This document shows positions 16,402-36,142 of a stretch of 64,000 bases of DNA, one piece after another; the first letter of the stretch is position 1, and each line of letters starts with the position of its first letter. A program made the position numbers and the translations under genes. The notes beneath the pieces are model-generated. The model was not told the DNA's origin. It saw only the letters and a list, made by a program, of their open reading frames with translations, and made no database searches. The DNA lies in contig JAHEGU010000009.1 in the NCBI GenBank assembly GCA_024644945.1, positions 1 to 64,000 on the forward strand. Direction: 5' to 3'. This stretch comes from Gammaproteobacteria bacterium (GTDB lineage Bacteria > Pseudomonadota > Gammaproteobacteria > Arenicellales > Poriferihabitantaceae).

Positions 16402-19065
16402 ATGGAGATCGTATTTCTCTGCACCTTGGTTCTGATGATGGTCATCGCGCTGTCTTCTGGTTTTCCTGTTGCGTTCGCTCTACCGGGTTCTGCCATCGCC
16501 ACCATCGTGCTTGCGGCCACCTGCGGCTATTTCTTTGCCGGCGATCCCTCCGCGTATTTTGCCCAGGACGGCCCTACGGAATGGATGACCGCAGGGATAA
16601 CTAACTTTCGCAGCCTTTACTGGGAAGTCGAGCGGGACACACTGATCGCAATTCCGCTGTTTGTATTCATGGGTATCATGCTGGAACGATCGCGGATCGC
16701 AGAGGATCTGCTGGTTGCAATGGCGAGGCTGTTTGGTCCAGTCCCGGGCGGACTCGGCATTTCAGTGGTATTTGTCGGTGCATTACTCGCTGCAACGACT
16801 GGCATTCTCGGTGCTACGGTAATCGCAATGGGATTGATCTCACTGCCTGCGATGCTGCGTAATAATTACTCGAAGCCACTCGCGACTGGAACAATCTGCG
16901 CCTCCGGCACCCTGGGTCAGATTATCCCGCCTTCTATCGTTTTAATCATATTGGCAGACCAATTGTCGAATGCCGCTGATCAAGCCAGTACGCTTCGCAA
17001 AGCAGAGTACAAAGCCTTTACCGGAGAGTTTTCCCTGCCCACCCAGCTCGACATCGTATCCGCCAGCGCCGGAGACATGTTCATGGGGGCGCTGGTTCCC
17101 GGCTTGATATTGGTCAGTCTATACATGCTGTATATCCTGATACGAGCCATCACCAAGCCCGGAACCGCACCCCCAGTCCCCTACGAAGGAAAATACGACC
17201 GGAATTTTGCGATCTCAATTGCGCTGTCACTTGTGCCTCCACTGACGCTGATCTTTGTTGTTCTCGGCTCGATTATCCTCGGAATTGCAACGGTCAACCA
17301 GGCGGGTGCAATCGGCGCTGTCGGCGCGATAATCATGGCCGGCTATCGATTGACCGATGGCAAGCGCGGTCAGTATCTGCCCACCATCCTTGCCACCTGT
17401 TCGATCGCGGTCGTCCTGGTTCTAAATAACAACTTCAACCTGAACGTAAAGAACGTATCAACCAATCGTGATTTAATTGGCGTGATAGTCGCGGCGGCCG
17501 CAGTACTGGTATTCGTCATCGCATTGGTCTGGAGTTGCTGGCGCACTTACAAGATCAACGACACGCTGGTCAGTGTCATGGTCGACACCGCTAAAACCAC
17601 TTCAATGGTGTTCATTATCCTGATCGGTGCTGCCATGCTCACATCGGCTTTCCGGGCATTCGGCGGCGAGGAGCTGGTGAGGGAATTTCTCACCAGTTTG
17701 CCGGGTGGTTTCTGGACCCAGTTCCTGGTCGTTATGCTGGTTATTTTCCTGCTGGGATTTTTTCTCGATTTTATCGAGATCGCAGTGGTCGTGGTACCCA
17801 TTGTTGCGCCAATCCTGTTATCTGACCCGTCGGCTAATATTACCGCGGTGTGGCTCGGTGTGATGATAGGTCTCAATATTCAAACCTCTTTCCTTACACC
17901 GCCGTTTGGATTTGCCCTGTTTTATCTTCGAGGAGTCGCTCCGCCGGAAGTCAGAACCACTCATATCTACAAGGGTGCGGTCGCATTTATCATGTTGCAG
18001 CTCGCCGGCTTGGCAATAGCAGGATATTTTCCTAGCCTTGTGAACTATATGCCTAACCGAACTCACCTTACGGCTGAGACAGCGCCACCACCGGTCAATC
18101 CGAAATTACAGCTATGTATCGAAGAACACTTATTTGGATACTACGACGAAAACCAGGATGGCCTGCTTCAAAGTATCAACCAGGCACGTAGCCTGAACCT
18201 GAACTCTCTGCCGGAAGCGCTGCAGAAATCTCTTAACTCCAGCTTTGATTCAGCCAATCAGACTTTCGAAAACGTCGAGTCGGTCAAATTAACTAGCGCG
18301 ATACTGGAACAGTTCAAGGATAACTACCAGCCGCTGCACACGCAGGTAAGATCTATTCAGACCAGTATTCGAAAACTCAAACAGGAACTTAAAAACCAAC
18401 AAGACAATTTGGATAGGGTTTCTCGCCGTGAACAGCCTACTGAACAGCAGTTAGAGAAGCTTGAGAGCGATATCAGTCGTACTCAAGAATTGATTGAAGA
18501 AGCAGAGAGAAACATTCCAGCTCAATGGGAAGAGCAGCGCAATCAATATCTAGAACTTGCTAAGAATGACCAGGTCGCTCGAAGCAATTACCGTCGTGGC
18601 GTCGACGAAGCATATGAGCCTTTAAGAGTTGTTCGCATATTATTGGTCGACCTAGAACCATTGCAGGCGCTCGAATCAGTGTTCGAAGGCCTTGATCAGG
18701 TGATCAACAGTGAAGAAGCAGAAACCGCCATGGAAATCATCAAGCAAAAGGAAAGTGACTTTAGCGAAATCGAGGGCGTCAGCCATATCAAGTCATTGTT
18801 ATCTAAATCCAGACGGGCTCTGAAAGGCGACTCACCAGACAGGGACAAAGCCCTGCAACTTCTTAATGAATCAAAAGAAGCTTTCAACCAGGAGCTTGTA
18901 TGGAGAGTTCAGGCAGCGGACAACCTCTTGCCGGGTCTTAATACCTATAACAACGCTATTTATGACAGTGTCGGACTGCGCTTACAAAAAAGACTACCCG
19001 TCAATATTGCGACCGAAGTGGCTTCCTGCTTGTCACATCATAAGGACATATCTGTTCACTTCTGA
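16402..19065 (+). CDS. TRAP transporter large permease DctM with long C-terminal coiled-coil tail
   Basis: This 887-residue protein is a sodium-coupled TRAP large subunit. Residues 1-550 are the membrane core with the DctM signatures IPLFVFMGIMLERS, GALLAATTGILGATVIAMGLISLPAMLR, GTLGQIIPPSIVLIILADQ, FFLDFIEIAVVVVPIVAP and GLNIQTSFLTPPFGFALFYLRG. The core is longer than the usual 430 residues, with an additional hydrophobic block around residues 330-380. After NYMPNRTHLT come some 330 soluble residues: an EF-hand-like DENQDGLL near residue 583, a strong coiled coil at about 646-720, then a helical region. I do not recognise this tail. The reading frame is intact and shows no sign of a fusion artefact. 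Confidence 0.88.
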   Translation: MEIVFLCTLVLMMVIALSSGFPVAFALPGSAIATIVLAATCGYFFAGDPSAYFAQDGPTEWMTAGITNFRSLYWEVERDTLIAIPLFVFMGIMLERSRIAEDLLVAMARLFGPVPGGLGISVVFVGALLAATTGILGATVIAMGLISLPAMLRNNYSKPLATGTICASGTLGQIIPPSIVLIILADQLSNAADQASTLRKAEYKAFTGEFSLPTQLDIVSASAGDMFMGALVPGLILVSLYMLYILIRAITKPGTAPPVPYEGKYDRNFAISIALSLVPPLTLIFVVLGSIILGIATVNQAGAIGAVGAIIMAGYRLTDGKRGQYLPTILATCSIAVVLVLNNNFNLNVKNVSTNRDLIGVIVAAAAVLVFVIALVWSCWRTYKINDTLVSVMVDTAKTTSMVFIILIGAAMLTSAFRAFGGEELVREFLTSLPGGFWTQFLVVMLVIFLLGFFLDFIEIAVVVVPIVAPILLSDPSANITAVWLGVMIGLNIQTSFLTPPFGFALFYLRGVAPPEVRTTHIYKGAVAFIMLQLAGLAIAGYFPSLVNYMPNRTHLTAETAPPPVNPKLQLCIEEHLFGYYDENQDGLLQSINQARSLNLNSLPEALQKSLNSSFDSANQTFENVESVKLTSAILEQFKDNYQPLHTQVRSIQTSIRKLKQELKNQQDNLDRVSRREQPTEQQLEKLESDISRTQELIEEAERNIPAQWEEQRNQYLELAKNDQVARSNYRRGVDEAYEPLRVVRILLVDLEPLQALESVFEGLDQVINSEEAETAMEIIKQKESDFSEIEGVSHIKSLLSKSRRALKGDSPDRDKALQLLNESKEAFNQELVWRVQAADNLLPGLNTYNNAIYDSVGLRLQKRLPVNIATEVASCLSHHKDISVHF

Positions 19066-19378: not shown

Positions 19379-19426
19379 ATTGGTCTAATTGGCCGCGATA
19401 AACGGTATCTATTGCCGGACAAGCGG

Positions 19427-19454
19427 TTGACTTAAAGGCGTTATTCCATATAAT
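19427..19454 (+). promoter_or_regulatory. Strong sigma-70 type promoter of a small RNA
   Basis: TTGACT (19427-19432) and TATAAT (19449-19454) are separated by 16 bases. This is the best consensus promoter seen in the window, and no gene begins behind it. Transcription would start near 19461. Confidence 0.75.
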
Positions 19455-19460
19455 TACATC

Positions 19461-19535
19461 ACGCTCCGCCGTACCTCCTTCACCTCCGATTTATACGGCG
19501 GATCATTTAAAAACCCATGGAATGGGTTTTTTTTT
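19461..19535 (+). ncRNA. Candidate small RNA with anti-Shine-Dalgarno loop
   Basis: About 75 bases lie between a near-consensus promoter and an intrinsic terminator. TCCGCCGTA (19465-19473) pairs perfectly with TACGGCGGA (19494-19502), a 9-bp stem. The 20-base loop at 19474-19493 carries CCTCC twice (CCTCCTTCACCTCC). Both halves imitate the 3' tail of 16S rRNA (CACCUCCUUA), so the loop should pair with Shine-Dalgarno sites. A second hairpin at 19510-19530 with nine T forms the terminator. No ORF fits. Small RNAs with CCUCC-rich loops that block translation are known in other bacteria; whether this one belongs to a named family could not be checked. Confidence 0.65.
19510..19535 (+). terminator. 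Intrinsic terminator of the small RNA
   Basis: AAAACCCAT and ATGGGTTTT form a 9-bp stem closed by a GGA loop, and the T-run at 19527-19535 has nine T. It ends the transcript from the promoter at 19427. In the opposite direction the T-run is shorter, so the orientation is plus. Confidence 0.8.
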
Positions 19536-19601: not shown

Positions 19602-19917
19602 CCCAGATAGCGTTCGCTGCTCAGATGTCCATGCGCCCGCTGCATACTACCGCCAGGAATGGTGGAAGGGCAGGTTTTGCATCGCTACTGGGATGTTGCT
19701 TATGAGGCAATGCAGGAGCAATTGCCGAGGAGCAAAAATCTGCCCAGGGCCATCCTGGCTATTCGCTGCTCTCGCGCATCCTTGCGCCCGCCGCATACGA
19801 CCGCCAGGGACGGTGGAAGTGCAGATTTTGCAGGAGCAAAAATCTGCCAAGGCCATCCTGGCTATTCGCTGCTCTCGCGCATCCTTGCGCCCGCCGCATA
19901 CCAGCCATCCTGGCTAT
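19602..19917 (+). repeat. Mosaic of imperfect ~104-bp repeats with hairpins
   Basis: One unit starts at 19729 and the next at 19833 (104 bases apart); they share an almost identical block from GGAGCAAAAATCTGCC through GCGCATCCTTGCGCCCGCC. A diverged copy covers about 19602-19681. Each unit contains small palindromes such as GCAGATTTT/AAAATCTGC (19821-19829 with 19839-19847) and CCGCC-AGGGA-CGGTGG. Open frames across it are rich in Arg, Ala and Pro and change with the repeats, so they are not read as genes. The block looks like extragenic repetitive DNA of the kind scattered through many gammaproteobacterial genomes. A related piece lies at 56640-56787. Confidence 0.7.
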
Positions 19918-19966: not shown

Positions 19967-20551
19967 TTATTTCCTGATCAGTTTCCAGGCCACAGGCAGC
20001 AGCAACATAGCGACAATGATCTTTAACAGATCACCTAAAAGAAACGGTGTAAGACCGTACGCAAGCACTGGTTTATCCCAGCCGATTACACTGCCTAGCC
20101 ATAACAGACCAAAACCATAAATCAGCAAATTACCTGTGACCATTGCGCCAAAGGTGGTCAATACATTTCGTCCCCATCCACGTTCTGCCATCCACCCAAC
20201 CACAATTGCAGCAAACAGAAAACCTAAAAGGTAGCCGCCGGTCGGGCCTACCATGTATGCAATTCCGATTCCTCTTTCCGGAGTACCACTGAATACCGGC
20301 AATCCAAATGCCCCTTCTGCAAGATAAAGAAGTATTGTGGCCGCCCCAAGCTTCCAGCCGTATACCATTCCCAACATTAGCACTACAAATGTCTGCATGC
20401 TCAGCGGTACTGGATAGAATGGTACTTTAATCTTTGCCGACACGAACAATAGTACTGAGCCAGCAACCACTAGCAGTACGTTTCTTAACATCGACTGGTC
20501 TTTCCAGTACGAATTTACGAGTGTTGAGTGGCTCAGCGTATGTATTGACAT
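19967..20551 (-). CDS. bioY: Biotin transporter BioY
   Basis: This membrane protein of about 194 residues is a BioY substrate-binding (S) component. It has the expected hydrophobic helices and the family motifs FYPVPLSMQTFVVLMLG, GLPVFSG, and MVGPTGGYLLGFLFAAIVVGW. BioY takes up biotin, either alone or with the shared ECF ATPase/T module; neither ecfA nor ecfT is present here, so it is of the solitary type. An in-frame codon at 20578 would add nine residues; ATG at 20551 (MSIHTLSH) is preferred. It has its own terminator and follows lnt by 35 bases on the same strand. Confidence 0.9.
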   Translation of the reverse strand: MSIHTLSHSTLVNSYWKDQSMLRNVLLVVAGSVLLFVSAKIKVPFYPVPLSMQTFVVLMLGMVYGWKLGAATILLYLAEGAFGLPVFSGTPERGIGIAYMVGPTGGYLLGFLFAAIVVGWMAERGWGRNVLTTFGAMVTGNLLIYGFGLLWLGSVIGWDKPVLAYGLTPFLLGDLLKIIVAMLLLPVAWKLIRK

Positions 20552-20586
20552 GAAGTATTTAATTCTATGGAAGTTCAAGTTTAATT

Positions 20587-35946: not shown

Positions 35947-36142
35947 ATAGCGTTACCCGCAGGTGTCGTATGCTCACTTTACCTTGAACCGAAAGGTTCA
36001 AGTGGGCACAAAAGACAGCTTCGGGATTCCCGCCGGCGCGAGCCGAGTTCATGCACACCCGCTGTCCACTGAAGCGCCCGAAATTGTGTATTAGGTTCTA
36101 AGGGATTCGGAGAACAACTCGAACACCGCAGGCAACGCAGCC
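35947..36142 (-). ncRNA. ssrS: 6S RNA
   Basis: The stretch between zapA and fau, where 6S RNA lies in many gammaproteobacteria, folds in the 6S manner on the minus strand. CGTTGCCTGCGGTGTTCG (36137-36120) pairs with CGACACCTGCGGGTAACG (35968-35951) as a long terminal stem. Near the 3' side is CCACTTGAACC-TTTC-GGTTCAAGG, the hairpin typical of Pseudomonas-like 6S RNA (E. coli: CCUUGAACC...GGUUCAAGG), and the middle part carries the GCATGAACTCGGC-type bubble region. 6S RNA mimics an open promoter and holds sigma-70 RNA polymerase in stationary phase. Ends are estimated to within about 5 bases. A -10-like TAACAT lies just upstream. Confidence 0.88.

Follow-up and report, generated by a model that had tools for sequence, protein, structure and literature searches.

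The intergenic stretch at positions 19427-19535 of the window (the whole 64,000-nt piece of DNA that was analysed) raises the question whether it encodes a small RNA (sRNA) that displays the anti-Shine-Dalgarno (anti-SD) sequence of 16S rRNA in a loop and, if so, how such an RNA might act. The locus lies between a TRAP transporter gene (16402-19065, + strand) and bioY (19967-20578, - strand), both named by reading of their translations, and none of the listed open reading frames of at least 50 aa covers the stem-loop. A first-pass annotation had described a promoter (TTGACT, 16-base spacer, TATAAT), about 75 non-coding bases ending in a terminator with nine T, and a perfect 9-bp stem that exposes a 20-base loop. 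All of these elements were confirmed at the positions given in Table 1, with the promoter matching 11 of 12 consensus bases. Taken alone, the promoter match is weak evidence for the gene; three promoter-like sites were found in the window, compared to 1.9 expected.

Table 1. Positions of the predicted sRNA gene elements and of the upstream repeat in the window.
Feature	Position	Strand	Remarks
Direct repeat, two CGGT-type half-sites (candidate activator site)	19400..19427	+	AAACGGT 19400-19406; ACAAGCGGT 19419-19427
Sigma-70-type promoter, TTGACT, 16-bp spacer, TATAAT	19427..19454	+	Hexamers 19427-19432 and 19449-19454
Predicted sRNA transcript, about 75 nt	19461..19535	+	Start inferred from -10 position, 3' end from terminator
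Stem 5' arm, UCCGCCGUA	19465..19473	+	9 perfect pairs with 3' arm
20-nt loop, CCUCCUUCACCUCCGAUUUA	19474..19493	+	Two anti-SD motifs, CCUCCUU and UCACCUCC
Stem 3' arm, UACGGCGGA	19494..19502	+	From the fold
Intrinsic terminator: 10-bp stem, GGA loop, nine T	19509..19535	+	Hairpin 19509-19531; kept in all orthologues

The predicted transcript folds with a minimum free energy of -24.7 kcal/mol (z = -4.45), a stability that is reached by none of 200 dinucleotide shuffles and to which the terminator contributes part. An A/U-rich sequence, AUCAUUU, directly precedes the terminator. With its own promoter and terminator and its non-coding character, the predicted gene would fit the anti-SD, trans-acting kind of sRNA, and the conserved anti-SD motif is indeed held unpaired in a conserved stem-loop.

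Comparison within the genus provides the main evidence for a gene. All five genus members retain promoter, stem, loop and terminator, and a covariance model matches the predicted sRNA in each of them. The promoter hexamers and their 16-bp spacing are likewise kept in all five (the -10 hexamer of one member, G004, reads CATAAT), whereas the spacer itself is only 12-44% identical in pairwise comparisons. Conservation of stem and loop was one of the points on which the first-pass annotation had staked its proposal, and it was borne out: in an alignment of the genus members and a paralogue (MAFFT, no gaps), 54 of 54 cells of the stem are paired and five of the nine pairs show double-sided compensatory change. 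This covariation was reached in none of 500 shuffles, and sliding the partner strand by one to three columns destroyed the pairing. The stem is under structural selection.

The paralogue is located on another contig of the same genome (G000 C82:37032-37103, minus strand). Compared to the window copy, none of its 20 loop bases is changed, while 6 of 18 stem bases are, which amount to three compensated pairs (Fisher p = 0.007 for loop versus stem). Its terminator stem occupies the same place but has a different sequence, GUUCC/GGAAC, and no recognisable strong promoter was found in its upstream sequence. What the two copies keep is the loop.

Upstream of the window copy, the second of two directly repeated CGGT half-sites abuts the -35 hexamer. 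Their spacing is exactly 21 bp, or two helical turns, in four of the five genus members, while the fifth, G004, has the -35-proximal copy only. The motif ACAARCGGT occurs only once more in the window. By their arrangement, the 21-bp-spaced repeats look like the site of an activator, for which they are a candidate.

The 3' end of 16S rRNA, read directly from the same genome, is TTGGATCACCTCCTTG / GGATCACCTCCTTG, and the loop thus repeats parts of it twice, as CCUCCUU and as UCACCUCC, in agreement with the match that had been proposed for both parts. The two motifs stand side by side (CCUCC-UU-CACCUCC). CACCTCC as such is not rare in the window (7 occurrences, 6.5 expected); nevertheless, four of the five genus members and the paralogue share the entire loop unchanged, and G004 has a single substitution. 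This near-invariance of all 20 nt suggests a requirement that would go beyond the CCUCC core.

The inability of the first-pass annotation to place the RNA in a named family was borne out by Rfam: no family reached its threshold, and the best scores were those of anti-hemB RNA (RF02837; 20.1 bits, with an E of 0.004 over 81 bases, where the gathering score is 49.5) and, after it, of the Betaproteobacteria toxic sRNA (RF02278). Membership in RF02837 was rejected at this score, as was membership in RF02278, for which the window copy scores 13.3 bits versus a gathering score of 50 and the paralogue gives no match. The only Rfam match above threshold in the window is a 6S RNA (RF00013, 54.2 bits) at 35950-36137 on the minus strand.

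Several known anti-SD sRNAs share parts of this design. The window sRNA has the layout of RF02278, i.e., a short two-hairpin RNA with an unpaired anti-SD stretch and a terminator, and, like the RF02278 and Burkholderia double-hairpin RNAs (ncS03, ncS05, ncS27, ncS62), which are made up largely of two hairpins, it occurs more than once in a genome (PMC5688073). The Burkholderia RNAs, 57-92 nt long, have unpaired CU-rich stretches with complementarity to ribosome-binding sites, which their loops are predicted to cover, and overexpression of ncS27 slows growth (PMC5688073). However, only the terminator and one CUCCU of RF02278 align with the window sRNA, in which a single 20-nt loop, closed by a 9-bp stem, holds both anti-SD motifs. 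Anti-hemB RNA (ncS04 of Burkholderia) likewise combines a GC-rich stem, CCUCC in the loop and a terminator, but its connecting region and the lengths of its loops are different, and the paralogue gives no match to it at all. The Neisseria sRNAs NmsRA and NmsRB also have two unpaired anti-SD motifs and near-identical sibling copies, and repress TCA-cycle mRNAs by pairing of these motifs with the SD (PMC5362039). In contrast to the window sRNA, with both motifs in one loop and copies on different contigs, they form three stem-loops, place one motif between stems and are encoded as adjacent siblings. The rhizobial NfeR1 / alpha-r14 RNAs, whose anti-SD loops silence ntrB in the case of NfeR1, resemble it in their ultraconserved unpaired anti-SD motifs and diverging stems, in the redundancy of the motifs and in a conserved upstream promoter element (PMC10746234). 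They are alphaproteobacterial, though, with three hairpins that each carry CCUCCUCCC, and membership was rejected for the window sRNA, with its single hairpin and a different motif, CCUCCUUCACCUCC. All these proteobacterial anti-SD sRNAs are apparently unrelated to the window sRNA, which apparently represents a family not described before, though of a known functional kind, the trans-acting anti-SD hairpin sRNAs. It would extend the anti-SD sRNAs with frozen loop and diverging stem from alpha- and betaproteobacteria to an uncultured gammaproteobacterial order. In this case the promoter is clean, the stem covaries, and a sibling copy and a candidate activator site are present. If this is general, it would suggest that the same anti-SD design has evolved repeatedly, and the locus offers a small model for the selectivity of an RNA that carries the ribosome's own mRNA-reading sequence.

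In the same order, a search with RF02278 gave many matches just below the cut-off of 50, the highest at 48.1 bits. Eight of these RF02278-like matches, the best-scoring ones, and a ninth (L146-L153 and L158; order relatives G027, G035, G056, G047, G050, G053, G029, G045 and G044) have in common a motif close to UCCUCCAUCCUCCUUUGGUGGUU and a terminator, and precede the rplM-rpsI operon in the same orientation; for L147, an rpsI-like gene is among the listed open frames and rplM itself is absent from that list. The element is possibly an anti-SD leader, or an sRNA, tied to ribosomal-protein synthesis. No such element was seen in the window's own genome, and rplM is unmentioned in the papers examined on RF02278, among them PMC4603805 and PMC5688073. 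Further RF02278-like elements occur in the window's own family (L154 at 501-564, from G003 C6; L155 in G010; L157 in G016). The first of them carries CUCCUCCUUCCUCCUU, and none of the three is located beside rplM within the stretch examined.

How might the window sRNA act? The reading that we consider likely is that of a stand-alone, trans-acting sRNA that represses translation by pairing with SD sequences. A sigma-70 promoter, probably aided by a regulator bound to the CGGT repeats, would produce the 75-nt RNA, which would fold into a rigid hairpin and a terminator with a poly-U tail, so that the 20-nt loop displays two anti-SD motifs side by side. The loop would then pair with the SD region of mRNAs, probably with the help of Hfq, whose gene is encoded in the genome, and thereby block 30S binding and lower the translation, and perhaps the stability, of a set of mRNAs. 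The calculated energy of the loop on a generic SD, near that of the 16S tail, agrees with such pairing. We infer transcription, Hfq binding and target repression; the SD-pairing mechanism itself has been shown for NmsR and NfeR1 and would, by analogy, probably apply here.

Pairing with many mRNAs, as anticipated in the first-pass annotation, is plausible, although no specific target was found, and the selectivity of so short an anti-SD core is poor. Exact copies of TCGGAGGTGA, the complement of the most conserved stretch of the loop, number 47 among the matches listed for five genomes versus 11 in a reversed control; most of those inspected fall within genes or are without a plausible start, and no convincing conserved start was found in these genomes. 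A search of the window's own genome for CGGAGGT-N4-11-ATG showed no clear enrichment (46 versus 41 in the control) and yielded no convincing target. One gene of a single genome (G001, L145) could form 10 perfect pairs with the loop near a start codon.

In a variant that we regard as rather unlikely, function would reside in the 20-nt loop as a whole and not just in the CCUCC cores. As a double anti-SD module, the loop might clamp a single conserved mRNA or else a protein by which the 16S tail is read, and two differently wired genes of one genome would supply the same loop in response to different signals. More doubtful still is the idea that the loop is a decoy, which imitates the 3' tail of 16S rRNA and titrates a tail- or SD-binding factor (for example bS1, bS21, a factor of rRNA processing, or CsrB-like sRNAs rich in GGA) instead of pairing with mRNAs individually. 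A CCUCC core would require neither such a length of the loop nor such strict conservation; 20 of 20 positions are identical in a paralogue whose stem is recoded, and the searches for mRNA targets found none, as a decoy would have it. However, the loop consists of two motifs, CACCUCC and CCUCCUU, and not of a single colinear tail copy, and outside the C-rich blocks it varies among relatives in other families, so that pairing fits better than mimicry. In addition, no precedent for a decoy of this form was found in the papers examined.

It is also improbable that the RNA is a general growth inhibitor that lowers translation globally, as a toxic RNA like those of RF02278 would. These share its anti-SD content and double-hairpin layout, and their overexpression slows growth (PMC5688073; PMC4603805). 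Moreover, calculated duplex energies on SD sequences place the isolated loop close to the 16S tail (for example, on AAAGGAGGUGA, -14.8 kcal/mol versus -17.1 kcal/mol), and in this calculation it binds a generic SD nearly as well. Yet, at normal copy number, a 20-nt loop within a closed hairpin would probably not compete with all ribosomes, and the inhibition of E. coli that is reported for cloned RF02278 RNAs arose from foreign copies. The low RF02278 score of the window copy speaks against this reading as well.

The distribution of the element beyond the genus bears on whether the predicted sRNA is independent of its neighbours. Among 84,980 species genomes, the exact loop was matched four times, three of them in genus members; the fourth (L066, a Christensenellaceae MAG contig) was rejected as a chance match that lies inside an ORF and lacks the stem. 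Viral contigs gave no match, and the collections used for both searches may omit records near the window's own genome. Diverged members were found by covariance model in two other families of the order: four genomes of f8, with the stem UUCCGUYUG and a loop containing CCCCCAUCCCGUCACCUCCGA, and, in a second round, two genomes of f5, with CCUCCUUCCCGUACGACAAACCCCUC in the loop. Both groups keep the C-rich loop, which varies outside the C-rich blocks. Their inclusion raises the stem pairs with compensatory change to seven of nine, in alignments that lean towards the structure because they were fitted to it. Weak matches within the order, e.g., L070-L077, were rejected for lack of CCUCC, and when 369 genomes of the class were searched with the covariance model, nothing convincing appeared beyond the members in the order, only terminator-like chance matches, of which none of those inspected had CCUCC. 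The upstream neighbour is a TRAP dctM-like gene in the genus and a dsbA-like gene in f8, a difference that favours an RNA gene of its own. That the element belongs to the upstream TRAP transporter gene in cis, as an attenuator or a structure in its 3' untranslated region, would agree with the presence of the same gene on the same strand in the genus members but is very unlikely: besides the changed neighbour in f8, the predicted sRNA begins about 400 bp past the TRAP stop codon at 19065, is preceded by a conserved, near-consensus promoter of its own and is present in a second copy elsewhere in the genome. Finally, a chance assembly of promoter-like, hairpin and terminator sequences, each of which is not rare singly, would be extraordinarily improbable and is already refuted by comparison of the sequences, because five of five genus genomes keep the whole element, with compensatory changes in the stem and intact promoter hexamers.

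Two further observations concern the flanks of the locus. The TRAP transporter large-subunit-like protein encoded at 16402-19065 (887 aa) is kept in the genus and has a long charged C-terminal extension that appears coiled-coil-like by eye. On the other side, between the sRNA and bioY (19628-19901), the window contains direct repeats of 54-55 nt that are 87-98% identical, are spaced by 103 and 151 bp and contain CGCCCGCCGCATAC; they are possibly a small mobile or REP-like element.
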